Source: Arcobacter sp. CECT 8983
Lineage (GTDB): Bacteria; Campylobacterota; Campylobacteria; Campylobacterales; Arcobacteraceae
DNA length: 64,000 nucleotides
Direction of reading: 5' to 3'
NCBI RefSeq assembly: GCF_004118855.1
Contig: NZ_PDKF01000004.1
Span: 707,604-771,603, forward strand
Part shown: one piece after another, positions 19,410 through 48,721 of the stretch
How the letters are laid out: each line of letters begins with the position of its first letter
Numbering within the stretch: position 1 is the stretch's first letter
Made by a program: the position numbers and the translations under genes
The notes under the pieces: model-generated
What the model saw: the letters and a program-made list of their open reading frames with translations, nothing else
What the model was told of the DNA's origin: nothing
Databases searched by the model: none

Positions 19410-19410
19410 T

Positions 19411-32983: not shown

Positions 32984-33004
32984 AATATGCTAGATTAGCA
33001 TATT
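32984..33004. promoter_or_regulatory. Operator-like palindrome, copy B, at fdhD
   Basis: AATATGCTA-GAT-TAGCATATT is a perfect 9-bp inverted repeat ending 14 bp before the fdhD ATG, next to TATAAAAT. Its arms are identical to copy C upstream of the TonB receptor gene. Confidence 0.75.
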
Positions 33005-33018: not shown

Positions 33019-33810
33019 ATGGACAACACAAAATATTTAAAAACAGTAGTAATAGACAAACTTATAGAAAATGAAGCAACTGAAATTGAAGATGTGACAA
33101 TAGAAGAATCACGTCTAAATTTGTATTTAAATGGAGAAAAAACCATATCTATGATGTGTATTCCAAAAGATCAAGATGCCCATGCAATTGGTTTTTTAAT
33201 GAGTGAGAATGTTATCTCAGGAATTGAAGATATTGAAAGCCTTGAAGTAAGTGAAGATGGTTTAAGAGTTGATGTTAAAGCGAAGATTGATGAAAACTCT
33301 TTACAAAATCTTTATAAAGAAAAAACACTTACAAGTGGTTGTGGAGGTGGAGTTACTGGAACTGCCGATGGTAACCTTGAAATTCCTTTTAATCAAACAG
33401 CTTTTAATATCAAGCCTAAAACAATTTTAGATGAGATTAAAATATTTTATAGAGAGAGCGAACTTTATAATTTAACTGGTTGTGTACATAAAGCAATGAT
33501 TTATTTACTTGATGGAACAACAGTTACAGCAGAAGATATTGGAAGACATAATGCAATAGATAAAGCTATTGGTAGATGTAAACTTCAAGGATTAGAAACT
33601 AAAAAATCTGTACTTTTTGTATCTGGAAGATTAAGTTCAGAAATGGTTACAAAAGCAGTTATGCATAGAATCCCAATAATTGTTTCAAGAACAGCTCCTA
33701 CATATTTAGGAGTTCAAACAGCACATAAACATGGAATTACTCTTATTGGTTTTGCAAGAGGTAAGAAAATGAATATCTATACACACTCTGGTAGAGTACT
33801 AGGAGTGTAG
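33019..33810 (+). CDS. fdhD: Formate dehydrogenase accessory sulfurtransferase FdhD
   Basis: FdhD (263 residues) transfers sulfur to the Mo/W-bis-pterin cofactor so that formate dehydrogenase becomes active. Blocks present are DAHAIGFLMSENVI, LTSGCGGGVTGTA (with the conserved Cys), TGCVHKAMI, AEDIGRHNAIDKAIG, SGRLSSEMVTKA and VSRTAPTYLGVQTAHKHGITLIGFARG. It is the first gene of a long cofactor and metal-uptake operon and has palindrome B just before its ribosome-binding site. Confidence 0.96.
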   Translation: MDNTKYLKTVVIDKLIENEATEIEDVTIEESRLNLYLNGEKTISMMCIPKDQDAHAIGFLMSENVISGIEDIESLEVSEDGLRVDVKAKIDENSLQNLYKEKTLTSGCGGGVTGTADGNLEIPFNQTAFNIKPKTILDEIKIFYRESELYNLTGCVHKAMIYLLDGTTVTAEDIGRHNAIDKAIGRCKLQGLETKKSVLFVSGRLSSEMVTKAVMHRIPIIVSRTAPTYLGVQTAHKHGITLIGFARGKKMNIYTHSGRVLGV

Positions 33811-33811
33811 T

Positions 33812-34231
33812 ATGGGTAAACTTCAAAATATAATCAATCTTGATGAAACACAAAAAGAACTTATCTTATCAAATTTAGATGATAATGGAAGACTATCTTG
33901 TCTAAAGGCTTTTAAAGTGGCAAGACTAATTGGGGTAAAACCAATTGAAATGTCAGATGCTTGTAAAAGTATAAATGTAAAGATTACAAATTGTGAACTT
34001 GGAGTTTTTGGAAAAATTAAATTTCAAAATGCAGAGAGTGCAATTTATAGCAAAATTAAACAAAACTTTACACAGGATAGTGATGTTTCTTGTAAAACCT
34101 TATGGTATATAGCGCAAGAAAGTAGTTTAAGAAGAGTGGGCAATACAGTGAAAAACAGTGATGTAGAAGTAACAAATTGTCAATTAGGATGTTTTAGAGA
34201 AAGAAAGGGGCATCGTGAAATCAAAAGTTAA
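33812..34231 (+). CDS. Uncharacterised protein with two internal repeats, fdhD-linked
   Basis: I do not recognise this 139-residue soluble protein. It has an internal duplication: LSCLKAFKVARLIGV...VKITNCELGVFGK (about 30-68) and VSCKTLWYIAQESSL...VEVTNCQLGCFRERKG (about 92-135). Both units end in a [IV]TNCxLGxF motif with a Cys and look like small helix-turn-helix or winged-helix units. It sits 1 bp after fdhD and overlaps the ModE-like gene by 17 bp, so regulation by, or handling of, molybdate/tungstate is a reasonable guess only. Confidence 0.7.
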   Translation: MGKLQNIINLDETQKELILSNLDDNGRLSCLKAFKVARLIGVKPIEMSDACKSINVKITNCELGVFGKIKFQNAESAIYSKIKQNFTQDSDVSCKTLWYIAQESSLRRVGNTVKNSDVEVTNCQLGCFRERKGHREIKS

Positions 34232-34589
34232 AATTTGGATAGAAGACAATGAACATAATCTTATTTTTGGTGGTGGAAAAACTCAGATACTAGAATTAAT
34301 TGATGAAACAGGTTCAATATCTGAAGCCTCAAAAAGAGCAGGAATGAATTATAAAAAAGCTTGGTCACATATAAAAGTTTTACAAGAATATATAGATGAT
34401 GAGCTAGTAATTGTTACAAAAGGAAGAAATTCAGGGGGAACAACTTTAACTCCAAAGGCTAAAGAGTTAGTAAAAAACTTTAAAAAGTTAAATGAAGAGG
34501 TTAGTAAATATTCAGAAGAAAAATTCAAAGAGCTTTTCTTAAAAAAAGAGAACATTATTCAATGTTCAAAAGAGAATGAAGATGTATAA
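34215..34589 (+). CDS. ModE-like winged-helix regulator without molybdate-binding domain
   Basis: The 124-residue protein starts with GTG and matches the N-terminal DNA-binding domain of ModE: FGGGKTQILELIDETGSISEASKRAGMNYKKAWSHIKVLQ, then RNSGGTTLTPKAKELVKNFK. The two TOBE/Mop domains that bind molybdate in classic ModE are missing, so it must sense metal through a partner or by another route. Its gene lies inside the operon headed by palindrome B, so it is the best candidate to bind that palindrome. Confidence 0.88.
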   Translation: MKSKVKIWIEDNEHNLIFGGGKTQILELIDETGSISEASKRAGMNYKKAWSHIKVLQEYIDDELVIVTKGRNSGGTTLTPKAKELVKNFKKLNEEVSKYSEEKFKELFLKKENIIQCSKENEDV

Positions 34590-35553
34590 ATTAAATTTTA
34601 TTCAATATCCAAGCGTAAATAAAATAGAAGTTGATAAAACACTTTCTTTACAAGCTTTAAAAGATAATGATGAAGCACAAGTTGTTATAGAGGATTTTAA
34701 AAAGAGATTTAATTTTAAATCTTTAAACTCATTCTCTTTTTCTGAAGATGGTTTTTTAAGTCTAATGATAAAACTTGGTGGAAAAATTATTGTTTCTAAA
34801 GGTGAAAGTCAAGCAATAGTTGATGCAGCAAAAAAATACAAAGATTTAGGTTTTGATATTGAATTTATTTCATTAAAGAAAAATGGTCAATTAAATTATG
34901 ATGAGATTAAAAATTGTGATTATGCTTTTATCTCTTCATATATCATGGATACTTATGTAAAAGTAGATTTACAAAAAGTAAAAGAGTTATCAGGGGCAAA
35001 AATTATTTCAAATGTAAGTGCAACTTTAGATGTAAGTTTTTGTGATATTGCAATATTTGATGCATATAAACTTACTGGTTTTTCTTTTTCTTCAATTCTT
35101 TTACATAATGAAGTTTTAGAAGAACAATATTTAGCACTTATTGATATTACTTCTATTGTAACTATTTTAAAAGCAGTTGAAAACTTTACTATCAAAACTA
35201 ATTATAAAAAAGATTTCCAAATAGCTTTAGAAGAAGAGTTAAACGAAGATATTTACTTCTTTGTTGATTCGAATGAAACTTTAGAATATACACTTCATTT
35301 TGGTTTAAAAGGTATCAAAGCTAGGGAAATAATTCGTTCTTTAGCTTTAGGTGGAATTTTAGTTACAAATGGAGAAGGGTGTTCTTTAGGTTTATCAAAG
35401 CCATCAAGAGTTTTAAGTGAAATGGGCTACGAAGAGCTTGAAACTAGATGGGCTTTAAGCTTAAGTTTCAAAGATGAATTAACAAGTGATGAAATTAATT
35501 TAATAGTAAAAGCAATAGGCAAAAAATATAGACAAATAAAAAGGTTAGGCTAA
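34576..35553 (+). CDS. NifS-like PLP protein, divergent cysteine desulfurase
   Basis: This 325-residue protein looks like a shortened class-V aminotransferase. AYKLTGF fits the PLP-lysine region, and VTNGEGCSLGLSKPSRVLSEMGYEELETRW matches the C-terminal Cys loop and PSHVLxAMG block of NifS/IscS. The N-terminal half is poorly conserved. FdhD takes sulfur from a cysteine desulfurase, so this may be a dedicated sulfur (or selenium) donor for formate dehydrogenase. It overlaps the ModE-like gene by 14 bp and moeA by 1 bp. Confidence 0.7.
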   Translation: MKMYKLNFIQYPSVNKIEVDKTLSLQALKDNDEAQVVIEDFKKRFNFKSLNSFSFSEDGFLSLMIKLGGKIIVSKGESQAIVDAAKKYKDLGFDIEFISLKKNGQLNYDEIKNCDYAFISSYIMDTYVKVDLQKVKELSGAKIISNVSATLDVSFCDIAIFDAYKLTGFSFSSILLHNEVLEEQYLALIDITSIVTILKAVENFTIKTNYKKDFQIALEEELNEDIYFFVDSNETLEYTLHFGLKGIKAREIIRSLALGGILVTNGEGCSLGLSKPSRVLSEMGYEELETRWALSLSFKDELTSDEINLIVKAIGKKYRQIKRLG

Positions 35554-36785
35554 TGAAGAAAACATTTTTAGATTTTAATATAGCAATCCAAAAAGCATTA
35601 GAAAATGCAACAGTAACAAAATTTACTGAAGTAGTTAGTATTGATGAAGCATTAGGAAGAGTTCTAGCTAAGGATATAGCTTGTGTTAAAAATCTTCCAT
35701 CTTTTAATAACTCAGCAATGGATGGTTTTGCAATAAAAGCAAGTGATGCAGGAAAATCATTAAAAGTAAAAAAAGTGATATTTGCAGGACAATCAGTTGA
35801 TGCTTGTTTACAAGAGGGTGAGTGCTATAAGATTATGACAGGAGCAAAGGTTCCAAGTGATGTAGATACAATTATTCCTATTGAAGATGTAGTATCTTTT
35901 GAAGAAAATATAGTAACTATTAAAGAAGAAGTAAAAAAAGGTTCTTCTTTAAGACTTAAAGGTGAAGAAAAAGCTTTAGGTGAACTACTTTTTGAAAAAG
36001 CTGACGTTATAACTTCAAGTAAAGTTGCAGTGCTAGCTTCTCAAGGAATTGTTAAAGTTGAAGTATATAAAAAACTATCAATTGCAGTTGTTTCAACAGG
36101 AAATGAATTAAAAGAGCCTTGGGAAGAAGCAAAGGAAGATGAAATTTATAACTGTAACTCTTATGCTCTTATTTCTTTTTTACAAGAAAAAGGTTTCAAA
36201 GCAGTATATTCAGGTTTAGTTCCTGATAATTTAGAAGAGTCAATTGAGTTTGTAAAAGATTTATCAACTTATGATGTTGTTATCACAACTGGTGGTATTT
36301 CTATGGGTGATGCTGATTTTATAGGAAAAGCCTTTTTAGAAAATGAATTAGAAACAATTTTTCATGGAGTAAATATAAAACCAGGTCGTCCAATTATGAT
36401 GGGTAAAATGAAAAATACTTTTGTAATGTGTCTTCCAGGAAACCCTCTTACAGCATTGGTAAATATGCATCTTTTTGCTATTCCAGTTTTAAATAAAATT
36501 CAAGGTAGTAGCTTAATTTATCATGATGTGACAATAGCTAAAAATCAAGAAGAGTTTAAAACAAAAGCAGGACGAGTAAATGTAGTACTAGGAACTTGTG
36601 AAAAAGGAGAATATAAAGTAACTAAAAAAAATAAATATGGCTCAGGAATGATTACTGTACTTGATGAGAGTAATTGTATTCTTGTAACAGACGAAAGTAC
36701 GGTACTACAAAGTGTAGGTGATAGTGTAAAAGTAATCAAGTTCAATTGTTCATACTTAAAAGAACAAACAAATATATTTAATTAA
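35553..36785 (+). CDS. moeA: Molybdopterin molybdenumtransferase MoeA
   Basis: The 410-residue enzyme inserts molybdate (or tungstate) into adenylated molybdopterin. Blocks present are LPSFNNSAMDGFAIKA, KIMTGAKVPSDVDTIIPIEDV, VSTGNEL, TTGGISMGDADF, KPGRPIMMG and CLPGNPLTALV. It is between the NifS-like gene (1-bp overlap) and the Wtp-type transporter, and supplies the cofactor to FdhA. A tungsten-selective MoeA cannot be told from sequence alone. Confidence 0.95.
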   Translation: MKKTFLDFNIAIQKALENATVTKFTEVVSIDEALGRVLAKDIACVKNLPSFNNSAMDGFAIKASDAGKSLKVKKVIFAGQSVDACLQEGECYKIMTGAKVPSDVDTIIPIEDVVSFEENIVTIKEEVKKGSSLRLKGEEKALGELLFEKADVITSSKVAVLASQGIVKVEVYKKLSIAVVSTGNELKEPWEEAKEDEIYNCNSYALISFLQEKGFKAVYSGLVPDNLEESIEFVKDLSTYDVVITTGGISMGDADFIGKAFLENELETIFHGVNIKPGRPIMMGKMKNTFVMCLPGNPLTALVNMHLFAIPVLNKIQGSSLIYHDVTIAKNQEEFKTKAGRVNVVLGTCEKGEYKVTKKNKYGSGMITVLDESNCILVTDESTVLQSVGDSVKVIKFNCSYLKEQTNIFN

Positions 36786-36800
36786 AAAAGAAGGATTTAA

Positions 36801-37757
36801 ATGAAGAAAACATTATTAAGTTTAGGATTAAGTGCAGTATTAGCATCAGCATTAGTTGCAAAAGAGAAAATTGTAGTATTTCACGCTGGAAGTTTAGCAG
36901 TTCCATTTTCTGAAATTGAAAAAGAGTTTGAAGCAAAATATCCAGAATATGATGTTCAAAGAGAAGCAAGTGGAAGTAGAGCAGCAGCTAGAAAAATATC
37001 AGAAATTGGTAGAGCAGCAGATGTTATGGCAAGTGCAGACTATAAGGTAATTGATAATTTATTAGTTCCTAATAATGCAAAATTTAATGCACAGTTTGCA
37101 ACAAATGAGATGGCAATTGCTTTTACTCCAAGTTCAAAATATGCAGATGAAATTAATTCAAATAATTGGCCAGAAATCTTTTTAAGAGATGGTGTTAAAG
37201 TAGGTCATTCAAACCCAAATATGGACCCTTGTGGATATAGAAGTATTTTAGTTACAAAATTAGCAGAAGAGCATTATAAAATTCCAGGTTTTTATGAAAA
37301 ACTATTTGGATATGGACAATCTTATAAAGTAGGTGAAGAAGATAAAAATAAAGTTATCGTAAGACCAAAAGAGACTGACCTTTTAGGTTTAATTGAAGCT
37401 AATGCATATGACTATTTATATATTTATAAATCAGTTGCCAAACAACATGGATTAAAATATATTACTTTACCTAAAGAAGTTTCTTTAAAAGATAATGAAA
37501 ATGCAAAATTCTATAAAACTGCAAAATTTGATATTGATGGTAAAAAACCAGGAACATTTATTACTAAAACTGGTGGAGCAATGGTTTATGGAATCACAGT
37601 AGCACAAAATAAAAAATCTCCTGCAAATAAAGAAGGAGCTGTTAAGTTTGTAAATTTTGTTTTATCTGAAAAAGGTCAAGAGATTATGAAGAAAAATGGG
37701 CAAGGAGTAATTTCTCCTGCAAAAATAACTGGTGATGCTTCAATTATAGGAAAGTAA
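36801..37757 (+). CDS. wtpA: Tungstate/molybdate-binding protein, WtpA type
   Basis: The 318-residue periplasmic protein has a signal peptide (MKKTLLSLGLSAVLASALVA) and the WtpA signatures HAGSLAVPF, ASGSRAAARKI, ASADY, ATNEMAIAF and SNPNMDPCGYRS, which bind a tetrahedral/octahedral oxyanion. WtpA proteins bind tungstate tightly and also molybdate. Its stop overlaps the ATPase gene by 1 bp. Its signal peptide is almost identical to that of the unrelated TupA at 39621. Confidence 0.9.
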   Translation: MKKTLLSLGLSAVLASALVAKEKIVVFHAGSLAVPFSEIEKEFEAKYPEYDVQREASGSRAAARKISEIGRAADVMASADYKVIDNLLVPNNAKFNAQFATNEMAIAFTPSSKYADEINSNNWPEIFLRDGVKVGHSNPNMDPCGYRSILVTKLAEEHYKIPGFYEKLFGYGQSYKVGEEDKNKVIVRPKETDLLGLIEANAYDYLYIYKSVAKQHGLKYITLPKEVSLKDNENAKFYKTAKFDIDGKKPGTFITKTGGAMVYGITVAQNKKSPANKEGAVKFVNFVLSEKGQEIMKKNGQGVISPAKITGDASIIGK

Positions 37758-38743
37758 TGAGCTATTTACAGTTAGATAATTTATCAAGCACAATAGATAA
37801 TTTTGTGCTTGATAATGTGAATTTAAATATTGAAGAGAATGAATATTTTGTACTTTTAGGACAAAGTGGAAGTGGGAAAACAAGACTTCTAGAAACTATT
37901 GCTGGATTAAATGATAGTACTGGAAAGATAATATATAAAGATAAAGATATTTCAGAACTACATCCAGAGCAAAGGGAAATAGGTTTTGTGTATCAAGAGT
38001 TTGCACTTTTCCCTAATTTAAATGTAGAAAAAAATATTAAATTTTCATCTAAATATAAAAAGGTAGATAACTCAAAAGAGTTATTTGATGATTTAGTAGA
38101 TTTTTTAAAACTTGGTAACTTATTAAAAAGAGATATTGAAAATTTAAGTGGAGGAGAAAAACAAAGAGTGGCAATAGCAAGAGCCTTGTTTTCAAGACCT
38201 AAAATTTTACTTTTGGATGAGCCTTTAAGTGCTATTGATCCAACTTTTAGAAACTCTATTATGAAAAGTTTAAAAGATATTCATAGAAGGTATGATTTAA
38301 CAACTATTCATGTAACTCATAACTTTAGAGAGGCTTCTTATTTAGCTGATAAAATAGCAATTATTATGAATGGAGAAATCCAACAAGTAGGTAAAAGTGA
38401 AGATGTATTAAATCATCCTGCCAATATTGATGTAGCAAAGTTTTTAGGGTTTAAAAATATATTTCCTTCTTCTTTATTAGGCTTTTCTTCCTCATCAAAA
38501 TTTTTCTCTGTTGATCCAAATATGATACATGTTTCTAAGAAAGAAAAACCAAATTGTGATTACACTTTTATAGGTACTTTAGAGGATTGTATGGGTGTTG
38601 TTGATCACTATAAAGTTTTTGTAAATGTTGAAAATCATCAATTTTTTATAAAAATATTAAAAAGAGAATATGAAGGTTGTTACTCAAATGGTGGAAATAG
38701 AGTATTTATCGGTTTTGATAAAAAAGATATAGGGTTTATTTAA
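37757..38743 (+). CDS. Tungstate/molybdate ABC transporter ATPase
   Basis: The 328-residue ATPase has Walker A GQSGSGKT, Q-loop VYQEFALFP, signature NLSGGEKQR, Walker B ILLLDEP and switch HVTHN, followed by a C-terminal extension (about 240-328) of TOBE-like size, as in ModC/WtpC. It lies between the binding protein and the permease with 1-bp overlaps on both sides. Confidence 0.9.
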   Translation: MSYLQLDNLSSTIDNFVLDNVNLNIEENEYFVLLGQSGSGKTRLLETIAGLNDSTGKIIYKDKDISELHPEQREIGFVYQEFALFPNLNVEKNIKFSSKYKKVDNSKELFDDLVDFLKLGNLLKRDIENLSGGEKQRVAIARALFSRPKILLLDEPLSAIDPTFRNSIMKSLKDIHRRYDLTTIHVTHNFREASYLADKIAIIMNGEIQQVGKSEDVLNHPANIDVAKFLGFKNIFPSSLLGFSSSSKFFSVDPNMIHVSKKEKPNCDYTFIGTLEDCMGVVDHYKVFVNVENHQFFIKILKREYEGCYSNGGNRVFIGFDKKDIGFI

Positions 38744-39513
38744 TGCAAAAGAAATCATTTATAGTTTTATTAATTGCCTTGGCTTTTATTATCGTTTTTT
38801 TCTTAAGTGTACCAATTTTAAAAATGTTTGTAGGAGTTGGAAGCGATAAACTACTTGAAACAATAAAAGACGGTGAGGTTTTAGCTTCTATTTGGCTTAC
38901 AATGAAAGTATCAGCTTGGGCAATGATTTTTGTTTTAATAACAGGACTTCCTTTAGCTTATATTATTGCAAGATATAACTTTCCTGGAAGAAGTTTAATT
39001 GAATCAATTATTGATATACCAATTATGATTCCTCATACAGCAGCAGGTATTGCTCTTCTTACAACTTTTGGAGATACTTTTTTAGGGGACTTCTTTAAGT
39101 TTTTTGGAATTGAGTTTGTAGGAACAGAATATGGAATTATGATTGCTATGATGTTTTTATCTGCTCCTTTTTTAATTAATAGTGCAAAAGATGGTTTTAG
39201 AAAAGTAGATGTAAAACTTGAAAAAGTAGCAAGAACTTTAGGTGCTAGTCCTATTTCTGTATTTTTTAGAATCACTATTCCCAATGCTAAAAAAGACATT
39301 ATTAATGGAGCATTGATGATGTGGAGTAGAGGACTTGGAGAATTTGGTGCAGTAGTAATCTTAGTTTATCATCCAATGACTACACCAGTTTTGATTTTTG
39401 ATAGATTTAATAGTTATGGATTAAGTTTCTCTGCACCAGTAGCAGCAGTTATTATAGCCTTTTCTGTTGTTGTATTTTTAGCAGTTAGGTTTGTAACTTC
39501 AAGGCTAAAATAA
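38743..39513 (+). CDS. Tungstate/molybdate ABC transporter permease
   Basis: The 256-residue permease (ModB/WtpB type) has five to six membrane helices and the coupling-loop motif ARTLGASPISVFFRITIPNAKKDIINGALMMWSRGLGEFGA. It completes a binding protein-ATPase-permease transporter in the order A-C-B. Confidence 0.9.
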   Translation: MQKKSFIVLLIALAFIIVFFLSVPILKMFVGVGSDKLLETIKDGEVLASIWLTMKVSAWAMIFVLITGLPLAYIIARYNFPGRSLIESIIDIPIMIPHTAAGIALLTTFGDTFLGDFFKFFGIEFVGTEYGIMIAMMFLSAPFLINSAKDGFRKVDVKLEKVARTLGASPISVFFRITIPNAKKDIINGALMMWSRGLGEFGAVVILVYHPMTTPVLIFDRFNSYGLSFSAPVAAVIIAFSVVVFLAVRFVTSRLK

Positions 39514-39571
39514 ATTTAATGAAGGAGAGGTAAATAAGGAAAGAAAAAAATTGTTAGTAGTAGGATTGTTG

Positions 39572-39588
39572 TCACTTCAGTTAAGTGA
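39572..39588. promoter_or_regulatory. Inverted repeat upstream of tupA
   Basis: TCACTT-CAGTT-AAGTGA lies in the 107-bp gap between the permease gene and tupA. It may be an operator or a weak hairpin. It does not resemble the palindromes at fdhD. Confidence 0.4.
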
Positions 39589-39620
39589 TTAAGTATAAAT
39601 AATTATAAAAAGGAAAAAAT

Positions 39621-40436
39621 ATGAAAAAAACATTATTAACTTTAGGTTTATCGGCAATATTAGCATCATCACTTATGGCAAAAGATGCTTTAATGATGGC
39701 TACAACAACAAGTACTGATAATACAGGATTATTAGACTACTTAGCTCCAAAGTTTGAAAAAGATACAGGTGTTACTTTAAAGTGGGTTGCAACAGGAACT
39801 GGAAAAGCTTTAAAAATGGGTGGAAATTGTGATGTAGATATTTTATTTGTACACGCTCCTGCTTCTGAGAAAAAGTTTATTGCAACTGGATATGGTGTTG
39901 ATAGACATCAAGTTATGTATAATGATTTTATTGTAATTGGACCTAAAAAAGATCCAGCTTCTGTATCTGGAATGACTCCAAGTGAAGCTTTACAAACAAT
40001 CAAAGATAAAAACGCTAAGTTTTTCTCAAGAGGTGACAATTCTGGAACAAATAAAAAAGAACTTTCTTTATGGAATAATGCAAAAGTTGATACAAAAGAG
40101 GCTTCTTCTTGGTATGTTCAAACAGGTCAAGGTATGTTAAGAACTATTAATATGGCTGCTGAAAAAAATGGTTATACAATGACTGATAGAGGTACTTGGA
40201 TTAAATATATGTCTCAAAAAGGTGATGATAACACTATGAAAGTAGTAGTTGAAGGAGATAAATCATTATTTAATCAATATTCTGTTGTATCAATTAACAA
40301 AGAAAAATGTTCAAATGTAAAACCAGAATTAGCTAAAAAATTCACTAACTGGGTTGTAAGTCCTGAAACTCAAAAAACAATTGCTGACTTTAGATTATTA
40401 GGTCAAGCACTATTTATTCCTAATGCAGATAAATAA
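39621..40436 (+). CDS. tupA: Tungstate-binding protein TupA
   Basis: The 271-residue periplasmic protein has a signal peptide (MKKTLLTLGLSAILASSLMA) and the TupA hallmarks TTTSTDNTGLLDYLAPKFE, GTGKALKMGGNCDVDILFVHA, YNDFIVIGP, SRGDNSGTNKKE and the C-terminal NWVVSPETQKTIADFR. TupA is highly tungstate-selective in Campylobacter and Eubacterium. It starts a tupABC cluster directly after the Wtp-type transporter, so this organism has two adjacent oxyanion importers. Confidence 0.94.
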   Translation: MKKTLLTLGLSAILASSLMAKDALMMATTTSTDNTGLLDYLAPKFEKDTGVTLKWVATGTGKALKMGGNCDVDILFVHAPASEKKFIATGYGVDRHQVMYNDFIVIGPKKDPASVSGMTPSEALQTIKDKNAKFFSRGDNSGTNKKELSLWNNAKVDTKEASSWYVQTGQGMLRTINMAAEKNGYTMTDRGTWIKYMSQKGDDNTMKVVVEGDKSLFNQYSVVSINKEKCSNVKPELAKKFTNWVVSPETQKTIADFRLLGQALFIPNADK

Positions 40437-40448
40437 GGGTTTTTATAG

Positions 40449-41144
40449 ATGAATCTTTTTACGGATGGCTTTCAAGAAGCAATACAATTATTAACATCAG
40501 GTAATGAATCTGTTTATTCAGCAATTACAACTACAATAACTGTATCTTCTTGGTCTTTATTGATTAGTTTAATACTAGGTCTTCCACTAGGCTTCTTACT
40601 AGGGTATTATAATTTCCCTGGTAAGGCCATAGTAAGAACTATTGTCGATACTCTTTTAGCCCTTCCAACAGTTGTAATAGGTTTAATAGCATATACAATG
40701 TTATCTCAAGTAGGACCACTTGGTAGTTTAGGTTTACTCTTTTCTCAAGAAGCAATAATAATGGGGCAAATAGTATTAGGATTACCTATCATTATTGCTT
40801 TAACTGCAATACAAGTTGAAGCTGTAGATAAAAGACTTTATGTTTCTTTAAAAGGTTTAGGAGCAAGTTCTAAACAGATTTTAATAGCTACTTTAATTGA
40901 AGCAAGATTTGGACTTATGACAGCAGCAATGACTGCTTATGGAAGAATTATTACAGAAATTGGTATTTCTATGATGGTTGGTGGAAATATTAAATATCAC
41001 ACTAGAACTGTTACAACTGCAATTGCATTAGAAACAGGAAAAGGTGAGTTTGTTACTGGAATCGCACTTGGATTAGTTTTATTTGTAGTTGCTTTATCTG
41101 TAAATATTGCTTTATCTATGTTAAAAAGGAAGTGGAACCAATGA
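40449..41144 (+). CDS. tupB: Tungstate ABC transporter permease TupB
   Basis: The 231-residue membrane protein has five helices and the TupB-type coupling region SLKGLGASSKQILIATLIEARFGLMTAAMTAYGRIITEIGISMMVGGN. It follows tupA by 12 bp and overlaps tupC by 4 bp. Confidence 0.92.
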   Translation: MNLFTDGFQEAIQLLTSGNESVYSAITTTITVSSWSLLISLILGLPLGFLLGYYNFPGKAIVRTIVDTLLALPTVVIGLIAYTMLSQVGPLGSLGLLFSQEAIIMGQIVLGLPIIIALTAIQVEAVDKRLYVSLKGLGASSKQILIATLIEARFGLMTAAMTAYGRIITEIGISMMVGGNIKYHTRTVTTAIALETGKGEFVTGIALGLVLFVVALSVNIALSMLKRKWNQ

Positions 41145-42163
41145 GTAATATTTATGAATTAAAAAATATAGAACAATATTATGATTCAAAAAGAGTATTA
41201 AATATAGAAAAACTATCTTTACAGAGAAGTCAAATCATAGGTTTTTTTGGACCAAATGGAAGTGGTAAATCAACTCTTTTTTCTCTTTTATCCTTTATAA
41301 ATAAACAAACAAAAGGAGAAATAATCTTTAATGGAATAGATAATAAACATTTACCACAAGAGTTAAAACAATCAGTAGTAATGGTTCCTCAAAACCCTTA
41401 TTTACTAAAAAGAACAGTATTTGAAAATATATCATATGGATTAAAACTAAGAAAAAACATACATAATCTTGAACAAAAAGTACAAGAAGCATTGTCATTA
41501 GTTGGATTAGATAAAACTTTTGCAAATAGAAAATGGAGTCAACTCTCTGGAGGTGAAGCTCAAAGGGTAGCATTAGCAGCTAGACTTATATTGAAACCAA
41601 AAGTTTTAATCTTAGATGAACCTACAACAGGAGTTGATACAAACTCTGCACAACTTATAAAAGAAGCTATTTTAAGTACAAAACAAAAGTGGAACACAAC
41701 AATACTTATTTCAAGTCATGATCACAATTGGCTTAATCATATTTGTGATAGAAAAGTAGCTCTTTTTCAAGGGCATTTAGTAGATAGTGGAAATCTTAAT
41801 TTACTTTTTGCACCTTGGGAAAAAGCAGAAGATGATAAGTTAATTAAATTTTTCCCCGATGGACAAGCATTAAAAATAGAAAATAGTGAATCTAAAAAAA
41901 GAGATTCAGTTGTTATGATAGAGTCTAGTGCAATTACTATTTATAGAATAGATTGTAAGGATTTAATTAAAGAAAATACACTAATAGGTGTTATCAACTC
42001 AATATCACATCAAAATTCAAATGAACTCTTACTCGTAGAGTTTTCAATTGGAGGAGTATCATTTAATTGTAAAGTAGATAAAAAGACAATGCAAGAACAA
42101 AGATTTTTTCCCTCAGATAGAGTTTATGTAAATATTGATACAAACCAAGTTTGTTGGATATAG
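41141..42163 (+). CDS. tupC: Tungstate ABC transporter ATPase TupC
   Basis: The 340-residue ATPase has Walker A GPNGSGKS, Q-loop VPQNPYLLK, signature LSGGEAQR, Walker B VLILDEP and switch SSHDHNW. A C-terminal extension (about 255-340) with VVMIESSAITIYRIDC and FSIGGVSFNCKVDKKT resembles a TOBE-like regulatory fold. ATG 41141 with AAGGAAG upstream was chosen over a GTG nine bases earlier. Confidence 0.9.
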   Translation: MSNIYELKNIEQYYDSKRVLNIEKLSLQRSQIIGFFGPNGSGKSTLFSLLSFINKQTKGEIIFNGIDNKHLPQELKQSVVMVPQNPYLLKRTVFENISYGLKLRKNIHNLEQKVQEALSLVGLDKTFANRKWSQLSGGEAQRVALAARLILKPKVLILDEPTTGVDTNSAQLIKEAILSTKQKWNTTILISSHDHNWLNHICDRKVALFQGHLVDSGNLNLLFAPWEKAEDDKLIKFFPDGQALKIENSESKKRDSVVMIESSAITIYRIDCKDLIKENTLIGVINSISHQNSNELLLVEFSIGGVSFNCKVDKKTMQEQRFFPSDRVYVNIDTNQVCWI

Positions 42164-42175: not shown

Positions 42176-42847
42176 ATGCAAAAAAAGCTATATATTTTTC
42201 TTCTCTTTTCTTTTGTTGCAATATTTCATTTTTTGCTTCTTAATTATGAGTTTAATAAAGAAATTGAATTAAAAAGAAAAAATATTAGCCATGATATTAC
42301 AGATATAAATCTTGTAAGACTTGAAAAAAAGCAAGAAATTATATCAAAAGCTGAACAAGTTAGAAAAAAGCAAATTGAAGAACAAAAACAAAATGAAGTA
42401 GCAGAAAAAGTAATTAAAAACAAAAAAAAGATTATAAAGAAAAAAGGCTTTAAAAAAGAAAAAATAGTAAAAAAACAAATAGAAAAAAATAGTAAAGATA
42501 AAATTGACCAAAAAGAGTTAATAAAAAAAGAAAAAGAAAATAGTTTAGAAAAAGAGCATATAAAGCTTTATATAGGATATGTTAGGAGAGTAATAGAAAA
42601 CAATAAATTTTATCCTAATATTGCAAAGGCAATGAATTTACAAGGTGAGTGCTTAGTAAGATTAAAAATATTAAATGATGGAAAAATTCAAGATATAGAG
42701 TTTGAGAAGAAAACAAGATATAAAGTTTTAAATAGTTCCACTTTGAAGATTTTGAAAAATATAGAAAAATTTAAAGCTTTTCCAAAAGAGATTTCAAGAG
42801 AATATTTAACTTTACGACTTCCTATTAAATATAGATTAAAAGGTTAA
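42176..42847 (+). CDS. tonB: TonB-family energy transducer
   Basis: The 223-residue protein has one N-terminal membrane helix (about 5-23), a Lys/Glu-rich spacer (about 45-125) in place of the common Pro-rich one, and a C-terminal TonB fold (YIGYVRRVIENNKFYPNIAKAMNLQGECLVRLKILNDGKI). It carries energy from ExbBD to outer-membrane receptors. It is 12 bp after tupC and before a FecCD-type transporter, and a TonB-dependent receptor lies at 46497-48434. No exbB/exbD is in the window. Confidence 0.88.
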   Translation: MQKKLYIFLLFSFVAIFHFLLLNYEFNKEIELKRKNISHDITDINLVRLEKKQEIISKAEQVRKKQIEEQKQNEVAEKVIKNKKKIIKKKGFKKEKIVKKQIEKNSKDKIDQKELIKKEKENSLEKEHIKLYIGYVRRVIENNKFYPNIAKAMNLQGECLVRLKILNDGKIQDIEFEKKTRYKVLNSSTLKILKNIEKFKAFPKEISREYLTLRLPIKYRLKG

Positions 42848-42849
42848 GT

Positions 42850-43857
42850 TTGAAGAATATTTATATAAAACTATTTTTATTGCTTTTAATAACTGTTTTC
42901 TTATCATTAAGTTTAGGTAAATATCCTATAAGTTTTGAGCAAATTATAAACTACATACAAGAGTTGTTATTTTCAAATGAAATAGATGAAAACTTGCAGA
43001 TGATAGATAATATTATTGTTGAAATAAGACTTCCTAGAGTTATTGCTGCAATATTAATTGGAGCAGCTTATGCTGTATCAGGAGCTTCTTTTCAAGCAAT
43101 GTTTATCAATCCTTTAGTTTCACCTGGAATATTAGGAGTTTTATCTGGTTCTGCTTTTGGTGCAGCTTTAGCAATTGCATTTTTTGATAGTTGGTTTCTT
43201 ACTCAATTATTCTCTTTTTCTTTTGGTGTATTAGCAGTAATCTTTGCTATTTTTATAACAATGATTTATCAAAATAGGGCAAATAATAGTTTGATATTAA
43301 TACTAGGAGGAATAATTAGTGGTTCTACCTTTTCTACCTTGTTATCAATTGTAAAATTTACAGCTGATCCTTATGAAAAGCTTCCTTCTATAGTTTACTG
43401 GTTGATGGGAAGTCTTTCATATATTGAACTAAATCAAATTGTTTTGGTATCTATTCCAATGCTTCTTGGAGTTTTAACTCTTATAGGAGTTTCAAAATAT
43501 TTAAACATTTTGAGCTTCTCTGAAGAAGAAGCAAAAAGTATGGGAGTAAATACAAAACTAATTAGAACTATAGTTATTATAGTTGCTACATTTATTAGTG
43601 CGATAAGTGTTTGTTTAGCTGGGATGATAGGCTGGATTGGTCTTATTATCCCTCACTTCGCAAGATTACTTGTTGGAGCAAATAATCAAGTTTTATTACC
43701 TACTTGTGCTTTATTAGGAGCGATATTTTTACTTATAGTAGATAACTTTTCAAGAATGCTTTTTGAGTTTGAAGTTCCTATTGGAATATTAACTTCAATA
43801 ATTGGAATACCAATATTTATTTTTGTGTTAAAAAGTTCAAAAAAGGCTTTACAATGA
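42850..43857 (+). CDS. FecCD-family ABC permease
   Basis: The 335-residue permease (TTG start, two bases after tonB) has about ten helices and FecCD/BtuC signatures: EIRLPRVIAAILIGAAYAVSGASFQAMFINPLVSPGILG, a cytoplasmic loop FSEEEAKSMGVN and GMIGWIGLIIPHFARLLVGANNQVLLP. The family imports iron siderophores, haem and vitamin B12; MolB of Haemophilus in the same family imports molybdate/tungstate. Its position after tup and moeA genes favours the latter. Confidence 0.9.
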   Translation: MKNIYIKLFLLLLITVFLSLSLGKYPISFEQIINYIQELLFSNEIDENLQMIDNIIVEIRLPRVIAAILIGAAYAVSGASFQAMFINPLVSPGILGVLSGSAFGAALAIAFFDSWFLTQLFSFSFGVLAVIFAIFITMIYQNRANNSLILILGGIISGSTFSTLLSIVKFTADPYEKLPSIVYWLMGSLSYIELNQIVLVSIPMLLGVLTLIGVSKYLNILSFSEEEAKSMGVNTKLIRTIVIIVATFISAISVCLAGMIGWIGLIIPHFARLLVGANNQVLLPTCALLGAIFLLIVDNFSRMLFEFEVPIGILTSIIGIPIFIFVLKSSKKALQ

Positions 43858-44627
43858 TTGAAGTTAAAAATTTAAGCTTCAAATATGCAGATGATTTAAT
43901 CTTAGATAATATTAACCTTTCTATTCAAAGAGGAGATGTCCTTGCAGTTTTAGGAGAAAATGGAAGTGGTAAAAGTACTCTTTTAAAACTTATTCTATCA
44001 TTTTTAGAACCTTTAAAAGGAGAAGTTTTAATAGATAATAAAAATGTTAATTCTTACGAGAAAAAAGCCTTAGCTAAAAAAATAGCCTATGTTCCACAAA
44101 GTAGTACTTTACCTTTTTCTTATACTGTTTTGGAAGTGGTTTTAATGGCAAGAATCTCTTATCAATCAATTTTTTCAACATATTCAAATAAGGATAAAGA
44201 AATTGCAATTGAAGCTTTAAAACACTTAGAAATAGAAAGCCTAAAAGATAGGATTTTTAGTGATTTAAGTGGAGGACAAAAACAGTTAGTTTTAATAGCA
44301 AGAGCTTTAGCCCAAAAAGCAGAAATTCTTATAATGGATGAGCCAAGTTCTAGTTTAGATTATTCAAATGAGTTGATGCTTTTAAATCAAATAAAGAAAC
44401 TTGCAAAAAAAGGCTTTACTGTTATTCAAACAACACATAATCCAAATCATGCTTTTTATATTTCATCAAAAACATTACTTATAAAAGATAAAAAAGTTTT
44501 TGCATTTGGTAAAAGTACTGAGATTCTAACTCAAAACAATATAAATAGTTTATATGATATAAAAGTAGAACTTTACGAAAGCAGCGAAAAAATAAAGTTT
44601 TGTATTCCAAAGTTTAATAGGTATTGA
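43854..44627 (+). CDS. FecE-type ABC transporter ATPase
   Basis: The 257-residue ATPase has Walker A GENGSGKS, Q-loop VPQSSTLPFSYTVLEVVLMAR, signature DLSGGQKQLVLIARALAQ and Walker B ILIMDEPSSSLD. It overlaps the FecCD permease gene by 4 bp and precedes the binding-protein gene by one base, forming a complete importer. Confidence 0.92.
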   Translation: MIEVKNLSFKYADDLILDNINLSIQRGDVLAVLGENGSGKSTLLKLILSFLEPLKGEVLIDNKNVNSYEKKALAKKIAYVPQSSTLPFSYTVLEVVLMARISYQSIFSTYSNKDKEIAIEALKHLEIESLKDRIFSDLSGGQKQLVLIARALAQKAEILIMDEPSSSLDYSNELMLLNQIKKLAKKGFTVIQTTHNPNHAFYISSKTLLIKDKKVFAFGKSTEILTQNNINSLYDIKVELYESSEKIKFCIPKFNRY

Positions 44628-44628
44628 T

Positions 44629-45516
44629 ATGAAGATAGTTTTTATTTTAATTTTTTATAGTATTTATAGTTTTGCAAATGTTATAAATTGTAATGAATAT
44701 GAAGGTAATGCTAAAAATATAATAGGACAATCTCCTCCTGTAAATATATTTTTACACTCTTTATATGAAACAAAATTTCCTAATAAAATATCTAAAAAAG
44801 ATAAGAGATTTTCAAAAATTCCTAGTATTGAAGTATTAGCCAAAAATGGTGTTGAACTTGTACTTTTATATAATTCACAAAGCAATTTTGAGAACTTAGC
44901 AAAAAAGTTAAAAAAAGTTAATATTGACGCATGTTATTTAAAACTTCATTCTATATATGATTATATTGATGCTTATAAAACAGTAGGAAAAATAATTAAC
45001 AAACAAAAAAGAGCTCAAGAAGTTTCTTCATATATAAAAAAAGAGTTAAAGTTTTTAAAAAATATCACAAAGAATATAAAAGATAAAGTAACTATTTATT
45101 ATGCAAAAGGAGATAATGGTTTAGTAAGTAGTTGTGAAAAATCAGCTCATACTGAAGTTTTTGATTTAATAAAAGCAAAAAATGTAGTTGAGTGTGGCAC
45201 TTTAGAAAAAAGAAGAGTAACTCTAAATTTAGAAAATTTATTACTTTTAAATCCTGAGATTATTGTAACCGATAATAAAAGGTTTTATAATAAAGTCTTT
45301 AAAGACAGTAAATATAGTTTCTTACAAGCAGTAAAAAACAAAAGAGTTTATTTAGTTCCTAAAAAACCATTAAACTATATAGATAGTCCTCCAAGCTTTT
45401 TTAAGATTTTAGGAAGTTATTGGGTAGGTAAAAAAGTTTATAAAAAAGAGTTTGAAGAAGTGAACTTTAAAGACAAAAAGACAGAGTTCGAAAGAATATT
45501 ATTAAATAAGGAATAG
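44629..45516 (+). CDS. Periplasmic BtuF/MolA-type binding protein
   Basis: The 295-residue protein has a signal peptide (ends near YSFAN) and a type-III periplasmic-binding fold linked by a long helix: FSKIPSIEVLAKNGVELVLLYN, VGKIINKQKRAQEVSSYIKK, NLENLLLLNPEIIVTDN, KNKRVYLVPKKPLNYIDSPPSF. It has two Cys residues in the first 100 and a pair (SSCEK, VECGT) later. Ligand not deducible; the context suggests an oxyanion or its chelate. Confidence 0.83.
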   Translation: MKIVFILIFYSIYSFANVINCNEYEGNAKNIIGQSPPVNIFLHSLYETKFPNKISKKDKRFSKIPSIEVLAKNGVELVLLYNSQSNFENLAKKLKKVNIDACYLKLHSIYDYIDAYKTVGKIINKQKRAQEVSSYIKKELKFLKNITKNIKDKVTIYYAKGDNGLVSSCEKSAHTEVFDLIKAKNVVECGTLEKRRVTLNLENLLLLNPEIIVTDNKRFYNKVFKDSKYSFLQAVKNKRVYLVPKKPLNYIDSPPSFFKILGSYWVGKKVYKKEFEEVNFKDKKTEFERILLNKE

Positions 45517-45519
45517 ATT

Positions 45520-46254
45520 TTGGAAAGTTTTAAAGCATATATTTGTATTGATGATACAGATGAAATAGGTTATGAAAAATCAACTGGTGAAATTTCAGAA
45601 GAGATAAAACAATATATTGAAAACAACTTTGATATTGCTTGTTCTTTAGTTACTCGACATCAACTTTTTTTACATGAAGATATTCCTTACACTTCTCATA
45701 ATAGTTCTATGTGTTTTACTTGTAATTTAAACCAAGCTCAAAAAGAGCAAATCAAAGAGTTTATAATCTCATATTTAAATAAACATAGTGCTCCTAGTTC
45801 TCAGCCTGGGCTTTGTATTGGTTTTGAAAAAGATATTTCAAATAAAAAAGAGCTTATTGAATTTGGTTTAGATGCTAAAAAAAAGGTCTTAACAAAAGAT
45901 GATGCTTATAAAATGGCCACAAAGCAAGGCTTAGATTTGAGTGAACACAAGAATGAAGGGCAAGGAGTAGTTGGAGCTTTAGCAGGTGTTGCCCTTAGAC
46001 TTTATGGCTTTGATGGAAGAGTAAAAGGAAAGTTTGACGTAAAAAAGGAGTCTATGAGTGTTGAAGAGTTATTGAAATTTGATTTTATAGATGAAGTTAG
46101 GTTTAAAAATAATGACTTAGTTTCAGAAGATACTATTATAAAAACAACACAAGCTTTAAAAACTGTTTTTTTAGACCATAAATCAATTCTTTTAGTTCAA
46201 GAGTGTGAAGATGGATATGAGGTTATAAGAAAAGAGAATTTAAAAAGTTATTAA
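45520..46254 (+). CDS. TiaS-like DDTD-motif protein
   Basis: This 244-residue soluble protein starts with TTG behind AAGGA. The opening AYICIDDTDEIGYEKSTGEISEEI resembles the DDTD nucleotide-binding start of TiaS, the archaeal tRNA-Ile2 agmatinylcytidine synthetase, and GQGVVGALAGVALRLYGFDG resembles its Gly-rich block. The RNA-binding and zinc-ribbon parts of TiaS are absent. It ends a transporter operon 3 bp after the binding protein. A role in ligand modification, such as phosphate transfer to a chelator, is only a guess. Confidence 0.65.
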   Translation: MESFKAYICIDDTDEIGYEKSTGEISEEIKQYIENNFDIACSLVTRHQLFLHEDIPYTSHNSSMCFTCNLNQAQKEQIKEFIISYLNKHSAPSSQPGLCIGFEKDISNKKELIEFGLDAKKKVLTKDDAYKMATKQGLDLSEHKNEGQGVVGALAGVALRLYGFDGRVKGKFDVKKESMSVEELLKFDFIDEVRFKNNDLVSEDTIIKTTQALKTVFLDHKSILLVQECEDGYEVIRKENLKSY

Positions 46255-46263
46255 AGGGTATTA

Positions 46264-46470
46264 ATGTTTGAATATATAAATAATAAAAAAATATTTAAAT
46301 ATGGGAAAGAAGGATATAAAGAGGCAATCATACAAGCAATGGATTGTAAAAGTTTTGTTTTGGATAAAGATGAAGATGAACTTATTACTTCAATAGATAA
46401 AAACTCTTGCTATAACTGTTTATATAGAAGATGGACCCAAAAAAGCTTCATGTGTATGGTGTCTAAATAA
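46264..46470 (+). CDS. Small Cys-rich protein (CxxC...C), metal-uptake operon
   Basis: I do not recognise this 68-residue protein. The N-terminal half is charged; the C-terminal end has NSCYNCLYRRWTQKSFMCMVSK, a CxxC plus a third Cys 11 residues later, and one further Cys near residue 28, which suggests zinc or cluster binding. It lies 9 bp after the TiaS-like gene, starts at ATG and ends at a strong terminator, so it is a genuine last gene of the operon rather than a chance ORF. Confidence 0.65.
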   Translation: MFEYINNKKIFKYGKEGYKEAIIQAMDCKSFVLDKDEDELITSIDKNSCYNCLYRRWTQKSFMCMVSK

Positions 46471-46494
46471 ATAGGAGATTATTCTCCTATTTAT
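46467..46494. terminator. Bidirectional terminator
   Basis: ATAAATAGGAGA and TCTCCTATTTAT form a perfect 12-bp stem around TTAT, between the stop codons of the small Cys protein and the convergent TonB receptor gene. Confidence 0.87.
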
Positions 46495-46496
46495 CT

Positions 46497-48434
46497 TTAA
46501 AAGCTATACTTTAAAGAAGCATAAAATTCTCTGCCTTTTTCTGGATAACCTAAATCATATTCATAGTTTTTGTCAAATAAATTTTCAACGCCAACTTTAA
46601 AGCTTAATGCTTTTGAATAAATATATTTTGCATTTAGATTTGTTAATGAAATATTTGATGCTTTAAGATAATCACCTGATACTTCATTTTCTAAATAGAA
46701 ATCTTTTTTATAAGTATAGTTTGCTTCAAGAATTACACTTTTTACAGGTTTAATATTTGCATAAACATAAAATTGATGTTTAGGAAGTCTTTCAACTTGA
46801 TCTTCTGAATCTTTTTTTATGTTTGTATATGTATAGTTTAAACCTGCTCCAAATAATGAAGTTTGATAATTAATAGATGATTCAATTCCTTTATATCTTT
46901 CATCTGCACTATTTTGTTCTTGTCTCTTTCCATTATCTAAAGTTTTATTTATAATTGCATCTTTAACTTTTGTATAGAATAGGGCATTATTGAATGTAAA
47001 GTTATCTACTTTTATTTTATGAGCTACTTCATAGTGTGTTGCAATCTCTGGATCTAACTCTGGATTTGGTATAGCTTTACCTTTTTTGTCAGAGTATCTT
47101 TCTTTCATAGTAGGTAAGTGACTTTTTCTAGCTGCAGTAAAACTAACTTGTTGATCTTTAGTAATATCATAAAAGAAACCAATTTGAGGATTAAATGCAC
47201 TATTTGATTTTTTTTCAACGGCAGTTGCAGTAGTATCAACTTTTGAAGCTCTTGTATAATCATAACTTGCAGAAGTAATAACTTTGAACTTTTCTGTTGC
47301 AAAATAGATATCTTCTAAAGCAATAGAGTAAATATTATCAGCTAAGTCTTCTTCTGTATTTGTAATCTTACCTTTTTTGTTAATATTTTCTTCTGTTCCT
47401 TTATGAGAATCTTTTTTATAAGAAAATGAAGTCTTTAAGATATGATTTTCTAGAAGTCCAAAGTTTGAGTATTCTAAAGATGTTCCTTTAGTATTATCAT
47501 CTGAGTCATAAAAACCTTTTGAAGTAGTGTATGTTTCATCTTGAAAATAGTCTGTTTTATATTTATAGTCATTTCTAAAAAGTTTAAATTTAACAGAACT
47601 ATCAGAAAAAATTTTATTTGCTATAAAATACATTGTTCTTGTGTCCCAAACAGGCCATTTCCAGTACTTCTCATTACTTATTGTTGGATCGATTGTAGAA
47701 GGTTGACCTTTTTGTGAATCCATGTAAGAATAACCAAATACATATTCACTTGTATCATCAGGTATAAATCCAACTTTTGCACTTATTGCTTTTTGTTTAG
47801 AATCACTATTTTCTCTTTTAGAGTCAGATAAATTAGCATCATTTGATAATGTCCAGTGACTTCTATCTTCAATTGTTCCATTTATTTGATAGTAATATTT
47901 TTCTTTTTTTGAACCAAGGTATATATTATACATATGACTTGATTTTTCCCAATCACTATCTGCATTTATTTGAGATGTAAAACTACCTTCAAACTCTTTT
48001 GTTGGTTTTTTAGAAACCAAGTTTATTACTCCACCTAAAGTGTTTGAGCCATATAATGATGAACTAAAACCTTTTGCTACATCAATTGAGTCTAGTTGAG
48101 TAGTTAAAATTCTAGAATAATCAAATTGTGCATCATAAGGAACATAAATTGGAATACCATCTAAAAACATTCCTATTCTATTTGAGTCAAATCCTCTAAT
48201 GTTTACAGACTTCTCAACTCTTCCTCCTCTGTTTACTAAAGTTATACCTGTAGTTTTGTCTAAAACTTCAGTAATATCTTTAGATGCAGTATTTTCTAAA
48301 GTTTGTGATGAAATTTTGTTTGTATCATATTTCACACCATTGTTATCTTGTATTGAAATTTCTCCAAGTGTAAAGCTACTTTGTGCTAACAAAACACTTG
48401 AAGCAATACATGAAAGTAAAATTATCTTTTTCAT
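46497..48434 (-). CDS. TonB-dependent outer-membrane receptor, putative Mo/W or metallophore uptake
   Basis: The 645-residue receptor has a signal peptide (ends near LLAQS), a plug domain (SSQTLENTASKDITEVLDKTTGITLVNRGG; VNIRGFDSNRIGMFLDGIPIYV; YGSNTLGGVINLVSKKP) and a beta-barrel ending in the outer-membrane signature with C-terminal Phe (GREFYASLKYSF). It is convergent with the tonB/FecCD operon. Its promoter carries palindrome C, identical in its arms to palindrome B at fdhD, and no Fur-like box. Co-regulation with Mo/W genes suggests a molybdate, tungstate or chelate ligand; the classic alternative is an iron siderophore. Confidence 0.85.
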   Translation of the reverse strand: MKKIILLSCIASSVLLAQSSFTLGEISIQDNNGVKYDTNKISSQTLENTASKDITEVLDKTTGITLVNRGGRVEKSVNIRGFDSNRIGMFLDGIPIYVPYDAQFDYSRILTTQLDSIDVAKGFSSSLYGSNTLGGVINLVSKKPTKEFEGSFTSQINADSDWEKSSHMYNIYLGSKKEKYYYQINGTIEDRSHWTLSNDANLSDSKRENSDSKQKAISAKVGFIPDDTSEYVFGYSYMDSQKGQPSTIDPTISNEKYWKWPVWDTRTMYFIANKIFSDSSVKFKLFRNDYKYKTDYFQDETYTTSKGFYDSDDNTKGTSLEYSNFGLLENHILKTSFSYKKDSHKGTEENINKKGKITNTEEDLADNIYSIALEDIYFATEKFKVITSASYDYTRASKVDTTATAVEKKSNSAFNPQIGFFYDITKDQQVSFTAARKSHLPTMKERYSDKKGKAIPNPELDPEIATHYEVAHKIKVDNFTFNNALFYTKVKDAIINKTLDNGKRQEQNSADERYKGIESSINYQTSLFGAGLNYTYTNIKKDSEDQVERLPKHQFYVYANIKPVKSVILEANYTYKKDFYLENEVSGDYLKASNISLTNLNAKYIYSKALSFKVGVENLFDKNYEYDLGYPEKGREFYASLKYSF

Positions 48435-48475
48435 TTTCTCCCTTTTAATAATTGGTAAAATACTTTTTACTATAA

Positions 48476-48496
48476 AATATGCTAAAATAGCATATT
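48476..48496. promoter_or_regulatory. Operator-like palindrome, copy C, at TonB receptor
   Basis: AATATGCTA-AAA-TAGCATATT is a perfect 9-bp inverted repeat centred 52 bp upstream of the receptor start. On the minus strand it abuts a TTATAGT -10-like sequence. Arms and spacing equal copy B at fdhD. Confidence 0.75.
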
Positions 48497-48700
48497 AAAA
48501 AATATAGTCCAATTTTGTGTAGTAAATTGACTATTTAGTAAATTTTTTTTGGTAAAAAAGATTTTACTTTAAAAAGTTTTATAAATACTTAATAAACTAA
48601 AATTTAAGTTATATTTTAGTTTGAATAGTAAAATTGACTATTTTATTTTTAAAAAAAAGTTAAAAAAATTTAAGATAATATAAATGAGTTATAAAGATAA

Positions 48701-48721
48701 AGAGACTTGAAAAGTCTCTTA
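48701..48721 (-). terminator. Terminator of the esterase / siderophore receptor operon
   Basis: AAGAGACTT and AAGTCTCTT form a perfect 9-bp stem around GAA, about 20 bases after the esterase stop; on the minus strand a T-rich stretch follows. Confidence 0.8.

Follow-up and report, generated by a model that had tools for sequence, protein, structure and literature searches.

A candidate TonB-dependent importer for tungsten or molybdenum in Arcobacter sp. CECT 8983 and its relatives

Results

Gene content of the locus

The stretch analysed here (hereafter the window) comprises 64,000 nucleotides of the genome of Arcobacter sp. CECT 8983 (contig NZ_PDKF01000004.1, positions 707,604 to 771,603 of the forward strand; coordinates below are counted within the window). 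It carries a set of genes, termed the module, which probably encodes an importer for tungsten (W) or molybdenum (Mo) acting across both membranes. According to the domain and NCBIfam calls, an operon runs on the plus strand from 33019 to 46470, from fdhD to a gene for a 68-residue cysteine protein. Its upstream part (33019..42163) consists of fdhD, an unassigned gene, a gene for a ModE-type helix-turn-helix (HTH) protein, a nifS-like gene, moeA, wtpA, wtpC, wtpB, tupA, tupB and tupC; WtpA and FdhD exceed their NCBIfam cut-offs, whereas TupA, TupB, TupC and WtpB are best matches that remain below theirs. The operon continues with tonB (42176..42847; PF03544, E 8e-13), a FecCD-type ATP-binding cassette (ABC) permease (42850..43857; PF01032, E 7e-81), its ATPase (43854..44627; PF00005, E 7e-37), a periplasmic binding protein of the MolA/BtuF fold (44629..45516; PF01497, E 1e-15), a TiaS-like protein (45520..46254) and the small cysteine protein, here called Cys4 (46264..46470). 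From tupC to the last gene, the intergenic gaps are of 13 bp or less, or the genes overlap, which is consistent with one transcript. Facing the end of the operon, a TonB-dependent receptor (TBDR) of 645 residues is encoded on the minus strand (46497..48434). The gene list given in an earlier note on this DNA, from tonB to the facing receptor, is thereby confirmed.

The permease, ATPase and Peripla_BP_2 protein of this single operon together constitute a FecCD-type (type II) importer. Neither exbB nor exbD is found between fdhD and the Cys4 gene, and six genes of the MotA/ExbB family are located elsewhere in the genome; the ExbB and ExbD proteins required by the module must therefore be supplied from other loci. 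Genes for a siderophore esterase-like protein and a receptor (48741-52401) lie on the same strand as the TBDR gene, which is parted from the upstream esterase gene by a terminator-like hairpin (48700..48720).

An operator shared by the receptor and the fdhD operon

The earlier note had claimed that the fdhD and receptor promoters share a palindrome, and this was borne out. The ModE-like operator ATATGC-N7-GCATAT (box 1) occurs twice before the fdhD operon (32877..32895 and 32985..33003) and once in the TBDR promoter (48477..48495). These are the only exact copies in the whole 2.74-Mb genome, in which 0.2 would be expected under a first-order Markov model (P(>=3) = 0.001); the probability that one of three random sites lands in the 300-bp TBDR promoter is 3e-4. 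The control pattern, box 1 read backwards, gave no match in the genome at one mismatch or fewer. Box 1 is also present upstream of the orthologous TBDR genes of Malaciobacter halophilus (locus L023), a sister genome (L024) and Poseidonibacter lekithochrous (L025), and locus L009 has the variant TTATGC-N7-GCATAA at this position. In relatives it additionally precedes formate dehydrogenase operons, fdhD and a molybdoenzyme of the xanthine dehydrogenase type. Judged on sequence only, box 1 is thus what is expected of a ModE regulon, an operator common to Mo/W genes and kept across species.

Several candidate sites were set aside. The motif AATAGT-N7-ACTATT of the TBDR promoter was rejected as a shared motif, no copy being found before fdhD. 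Some copies of box 1 in relatives were excluded because they fall within the coding sequence of sox and oxidoreductase genes, and those preceding a MarR-type gene because a similar TGCAA dyad may be part of that gene's own operator. A near-identical palindrome does lie just upstream of a MarR-type gene, usually accompanied by a gene for a major facilitator superfamily transporter, in L086, L092, L097 and L101, and such a lookalike can confuse searches for ModE boxes. P. lekithochrous also has a second operon of FecCD permease, ATPase, binding protein, receptor and methyltransferase genes (L102 7678-13339, genome G118), which has no TiaS-like gene and is preceded by two copies of box 1, 41 and 108 bp upstream.

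The best match to a simple Fur consensus was 11/19 in the TBDR promoter, compared with 14/19, in the dyad TTGATACTGAGTATCAT, at the siderophore receptor of the window. The contrast drawn in the earlier note, a Fur-like box at the siderophore receptor and none at the TBDR, therefore holds in direction; its strength is weak.

A second motif in the receptor promoter

The TBDR promoter also contains two copies (48454..48471 and 48551..48568) of a different motif, AGTAAA-N6-TTTACC (box 2). Eight exact copies exist in the genome, of which five are in the window (binomial P 4e-7), the remaining window sites being at selA (17029), in the interval between selD and a selenate-type ABC operon (18398) and before the formate dehydrogenase operon (25595). 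In the sister genome G108, a relaxed form of the dyad was found in the TBDR promoter, near selD-selA and at two formate dehydrogenase operons, at the start of one and near the other. We regard the box 2 set as a candidate formate-dehydrogenase/selenium regulon, and the TBDR appears to belong to two regulons, one of the Mo/W type and one of the formate-dehydrogenase/selenium type.

Other features of the window touch on the same genes. The ABC operon divergent from selD (18564-21538) encodes a binding protein (18564) that passes the cut-off for a putative selenate ABC transporter (TIGR04553), and a tRNA-Sec gene (17100-17194) lies between selA and selD. The in-frame TGA at residue 187 of fdhA (28423-31245) makes its product probably a selenocysteine formate dehydrogenase. 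A symmetric variant of box 2, counted with the same candidate regulon, is found at 55153, 60 bp upstream of a gene for a second, divergent ModE-type HTH protein (55213-55560; TIGR00637, E 1e-7, below cut-off).

Distribution and genomic context of the module

Relatives were retrieved by a profile search with the TiaS-like protein, which is patchily distributed in Campylobacterota (18/397 genomes at the scale of the phylum, 7/104 in the family). A scan of the collection revealed further carriers among Clostridia (Acetobacterium and others), Syntrophomonadaceae, a Desulfurellales contig and a Desulfobulbus metagenome-assembled genome (MAG). The FecCD permease, the ATPase and the BtuF-fold protein accompany the TiaS-like gene in most loci, and the intact loci of Campylobacterota have the receptor as well; exbB, exbD and tonB are often close by. 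In the Clostridia loci the core module is present and no receptor was found, as expected of bacteria with no outer membrane; receptors are thus confined to diderm loci, whereas the core module is found in both groups. Several of the Clostridia loci have a gene for a secreted protein before the permease gene, with an Ig-like (Big_5) domain in the one tested, and many loci (L014, L026, L030-L036) add genes for a luciferase-like monooxygenase, a methyltransferase, a small membrane protein or a secreted Oxidored_molyb-domain protein.

The neighbourhoods were scored automatically for Mo/W markers at a distance of up to about 10 kb (tup, wtp, mod, mop, modD, modE, moeA or fdhD). Such markers are present at 15 of the 22 module loci of Campylobacterota and at none of 18 other FecCD loci, drawn from those genomes or close relatives of them (Fisher p = 6e-6, a value overstated by kinship among the species). 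The contexts nevertheless vary in Campylobacterota (tup-wtp-fdhD, modABC-mop-modD, TOBE/mop alone, fdhD-modE), and those of Firmicutes include tupABC, pairs of moeA, aldehyde ferredoxin oxidoreductase and genes for molybdenum cofactor biosynthesis. For the earlier note, orthologues sitting consistently with siderophore or haem genes would have spoken against Mo/W acquisition; they mostly adjoin Mo/W genes instead, and a siderophore-type receptor neighbours a few loci of Campylobacter-like genomes. With the 11/19 Fur match, neither the conserved linkage nor the Fur box of a siderophore system was therefore observed.

Riboswitches upstream of the module

The molybdenum/tungsten cofactor riboswitch of Rfam (RF01055) is located close upstream of module genes in eight Firmicutes loci (L040, L041, L042, L046, L049, L050, L051 and L052, the contig of L042 ending soon after the riboswitch), with E values from 9e-9 to 2e-15; the core module of Clostridia is mostly located behind such a riboswitch. 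In the Desulfurellales contig (L038; riboswitch E 3e-20) it lies directly before the gene of a receptor that has both Plug and barrel domains, followed by the TiaS-like gene. The alignments of the four module-adjacent copies inspected (L038, L040, L049 and L050) lack stem P3, which is present in a moeA-linked copy in L048. RNAs lacking P3 are associated with tungsten cofactor metabolism (Regulski et al. 2008; PMC2408646), and these four loci thus have the arrangement of a tungsten cofactor riboswitch regulon. No riboswitch was found in the window or in the Campylobacterota loci, the search of the window returning only tRNA-Sec.

Receptor and binding protein

The TBDR has the two domains that define its class, a Plug (PF07715, E 2e-22) and a 22-strand barrel (PF00593, E 6e-33), both above the Pfam cut-off. 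It falls under the curated cut-offs for siderophore (TIGR01783, 154.9 against 223.5 bits), haem (TIGR01785, 157.1 against 316.85 bits) and vitamin B12 receptors (TIGR01779, 109.5 against 599.7 bits), and the receptors of the Campylobacterota module loci form one clade apart from siderophore-type receptors (support 95/98). In the PDB, the binding protein matches an unassigned Sulfurospirillum protein (4pag, E 2e-39), MolA being a more distant relative (3psa, E 3.5e-7). Comparison of the modelled fold with the PDB was tried as a test of substrate and fails, the scores being alike for MolA, haem, siderophore and CeuE structures; in sequence and in fold, the likeness to MolA is no better than to other binding proteins of the same fold.

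The TiaS-like and Cys4 proteins

The TiaS-like protein (AlphaFold2 model, pLDDT 93) matches TiaS structures at E 1e-8 and retains the N-terminal ATP-binding IDDTD fold, which archaeal TiaS and methanogenesis marker protein 11 have in common with it. The full-length TiaS architecture is absent (about 244 residues, compared with about 420), and both identities were rejected, with scores far under the curated cut-offs (36.4 bits against more than 600 for TiaS, 41.4 against 255.8 for marker 11). Since the fold is kept in a much shorter protein, it is reasonable to suppose that it acts on a small molecule or ligand in an ATP-dependent manner. The Cys4 protein has no match in Pfam or NCBIfam; its gene comes after the TiaS-like gene at almost every locus, with four cysteines invariant in the alignment, and it could bind a metal.

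Discussion

We propose that the module is, with good probability, a TonB-energised importer spanning two membranes for tungsten, and in some hosts probably for molybdenum, and that it supplies formate dehydrogenase together with related cofactor enzymes. The Mo/W acquisition suggested by the earlier note is corroborated by the gene neighbourhoods, by the retention of box 1 at the receptor in relatives and by the placement of the module under cofactor riboswitches in Clostridia and in the Desulfurellales contig. Of all single lines of evidence, the riboswitch type speaks most strongly for a cargo destined for tungsten cofactor supply, and in L038 it applies to the receptor itself; it indicates tungsten no less than molybdenum. 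In the proposed mechanism, the TBDR, whose class follows from its domains, would bind a W or Mo species outside the cell, as suggested by its neighbours and regulation, and would be opened by TonB. The binding protein would then hand this species to the FecCD permease and its ATPase, by analogy with the homologous BtuF-BtuCD and MolA-MolBC systems. It can be hypothesised that, once in the cytoplasm, the imported species is processed by the TiaS-like and Cys4 proteins, for example by ATP-dependent modification of a ligand and hand-over of the metal. At the level of regulation, a ModE-like protein acting through box 1 may repress the TBDR and the operon when Mo/W is sufficient, and a putative formate-dehydrogenase/selenium regulator may act at box 2.

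Several observations weigh against this proposal. No marker lies within about 10 kb of 7 of the 22 Campylobacterota loci, and some Campylobacter-like module loci adjoin a siderophore-type receptor. A few Campylobacter-like loci (L172, L175, L182 and L183) have truncated or missing parts and look decayed, which suggests that the system was lost in some lineages. The riboswitches sit in other phyla or in MAG contigs and none is in the window of this genome; L038 and several other loci are MAG contigs, the Malaciobacter, Poseidonibacter and several Acetobacterium records being from cultured strains. The operon's ModE-like protein is the presumed cognate factor of box 1 by position only. Moreover, the clade of module-type receptors also includes loci with no TiaS-like gene, among them the Arcobacter-like L010, L011 and L013, which have no Mo/W marker. 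These three are large clusters with two binding proteins, additional TonB-type receptors, exbBD-tonB and luciferase-like monooxygenase genes. It is possible that their receptors take a different cargo, and the receptor and transporter family may serve more than one.

The foremost alternative is iron uptake, whereby the cargo of the TBDR and the FecCD transporter would be a ferric siderophore or haem, with Mo/W neighbours by coincidence. Both families mostly import iron, haem or B12, siderophore esterase-like and receptor genes adjoin the TBDR gene in the window, a siderophore-type receptor lies beside some Campylobacter-like loci, and the fold of the binding protein does not discriminate. Coincidence would nevertheless have to account for the markers at 15/22 module loci against 0/18 controls, for the riboswitches preceding module operons and a receptor, and for the box 1 common to the TBDR and the fdhD operon. 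In addition, the Fur match is weaker at the TBDR promoter, the receptor scores under the siderophore, haem and B12 cut-offs, and the siderophore genes of the window have no counterpart next to the receptor at L023-L025, the closest orthologous loci. We consequently consider iron uptake unlikely. A second alternative is the salvage of a Mo/W cofactor or pterin precursor, imported as a large molecule in the manner of vitamin B12 in place of the metal. It would accord with the architecture reminiscent of BtuB and BtuCDF, with riboswitch control and with the secreted Oxidored_molyb-domain protein of some loci, but linkage is mostly to oxyanion transporters, for which pterin salvage has no need, and L039 sits with molybdenum cofactor biosynthesis genes and hence in a cofactor maker, so that this alternative is very improbable. 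Import of a selenium compound by a TBDR of the selenium/formate dehydrogenase regulon, to which the box 2 sites, the selenate-type binding protein above cut-off at 18564 and the selD-selA-selB genes upstream of the module in L055 might point, is scarcely credible, as it leaves box 1, the riboswitches and the tup, mod and moeA linkage unexplained.

If the module does import tungsten or molybdenum, the form of the cargo has to be considered. We lean slightly towards a chelated or otherwise bulky complex over free tungstate, because the same operons already carry TupABC, WtpABC or ModABC for the free oxyanions. A different chemical form, for example a chelate too large for porins, would be the most economical reason for such a module beside TupABC and WtpABC; direct capture of a scarce oxyanion by the TBDR is also possible. 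Neither a condensation domain of non-ribosomal peptide synthetases nor an IucA/IucC domain was found in the genome, which leaves other routes of metallophore synthesis open; any ligand would thus have to come from other organisms or from a route of synthesis not yet recognised. More tentatively, and with rather less than even confidence, it can be imagined that the TBDR takes up organically chelated tungsten, that the chelate is imported whole, and that the metal is freed by the TiaS-like protein, as an ATP-dependent enzyme, together with Cys4. If so, the TiaS-like family, which is related to methanogenesis marker 11, would be a class of metal-handling enzymes tied to tungsten cofactor supply.

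Iron and B12 are established substrates of TonB-dependent uptake, as are some other metals and sugars. The B12 system BtuB-TonB-BtuFCD and the ferric siderophore systems combining a TBDR with FecCD have the same two-membrane architecture as the module, which differs from them in its Mo/W neighbours and regulation and in a receptor scoring below the B12, siderophore and haem cut-offs. MolBCA of Haemophilus influenzae (HI1470-HI1472), which takes molybdate and tungstate, is similarly composed of a FecCD-type permease, an ATPase and a BtuF-fold binding protein; the module adds the outer-membrane receptor, tonB, the TiaS-like protein and Cys4, and its binding protein is nearer to the Sulfurospirillum structure 4pag. 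TupABC, WtpABC and ModABC supply Mo/W from the same operons, but they belong to another transporter family, draw on free oxyanions in the periplasm and lack an outer-membrane receptor. In the open-access literature searched, uptake of W and Mo consists of ABC transport of oxyanions and of a route in Pseudomonas aeruginosa, T6SS-ModA-IcmP, reported as an outer-membrane step for molybdate (PMC8602904); this type VI secretion system (T6SS) route depends on ModA, which is secreted, and on the surface protein IcmP, whereas the module uses a TBDR. On TonB together with W or Mo, that literature gave nothing direct. The nearest earlier remark is one sentence on Pelobacter carbinolicus, according to which TonB-type channels near molybdopterin-binding proteins or near molybdopterin/cobalamin riboswitches may transport metals (PMC3543383), a remark that itself carries no module, TiaS-like protein, operator or substrate assignment. 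FecCD-type molybdate import (MolBCA), TBDR-FecCD systems and control by ModE or a riboswitch are therefore each known separately. A TonB-dependent W/Mo system that unites them and includes two new conserved proteins of the cytoplasm did not turn up in the open-access literature searched and is provisionally considered new.

For the TiaS-like protein and Cys4, two conserved proteins so far uncharacterised, the module provides a first hypothesis of function. If the proposal is correct, tungsten could be scavenged through a receptor when it is scarce or in bound form, a route that would be relevant to the metabolism of formate and CO2 in acetogens and in Campylobacterota, Campylobacter-like genomes among them.

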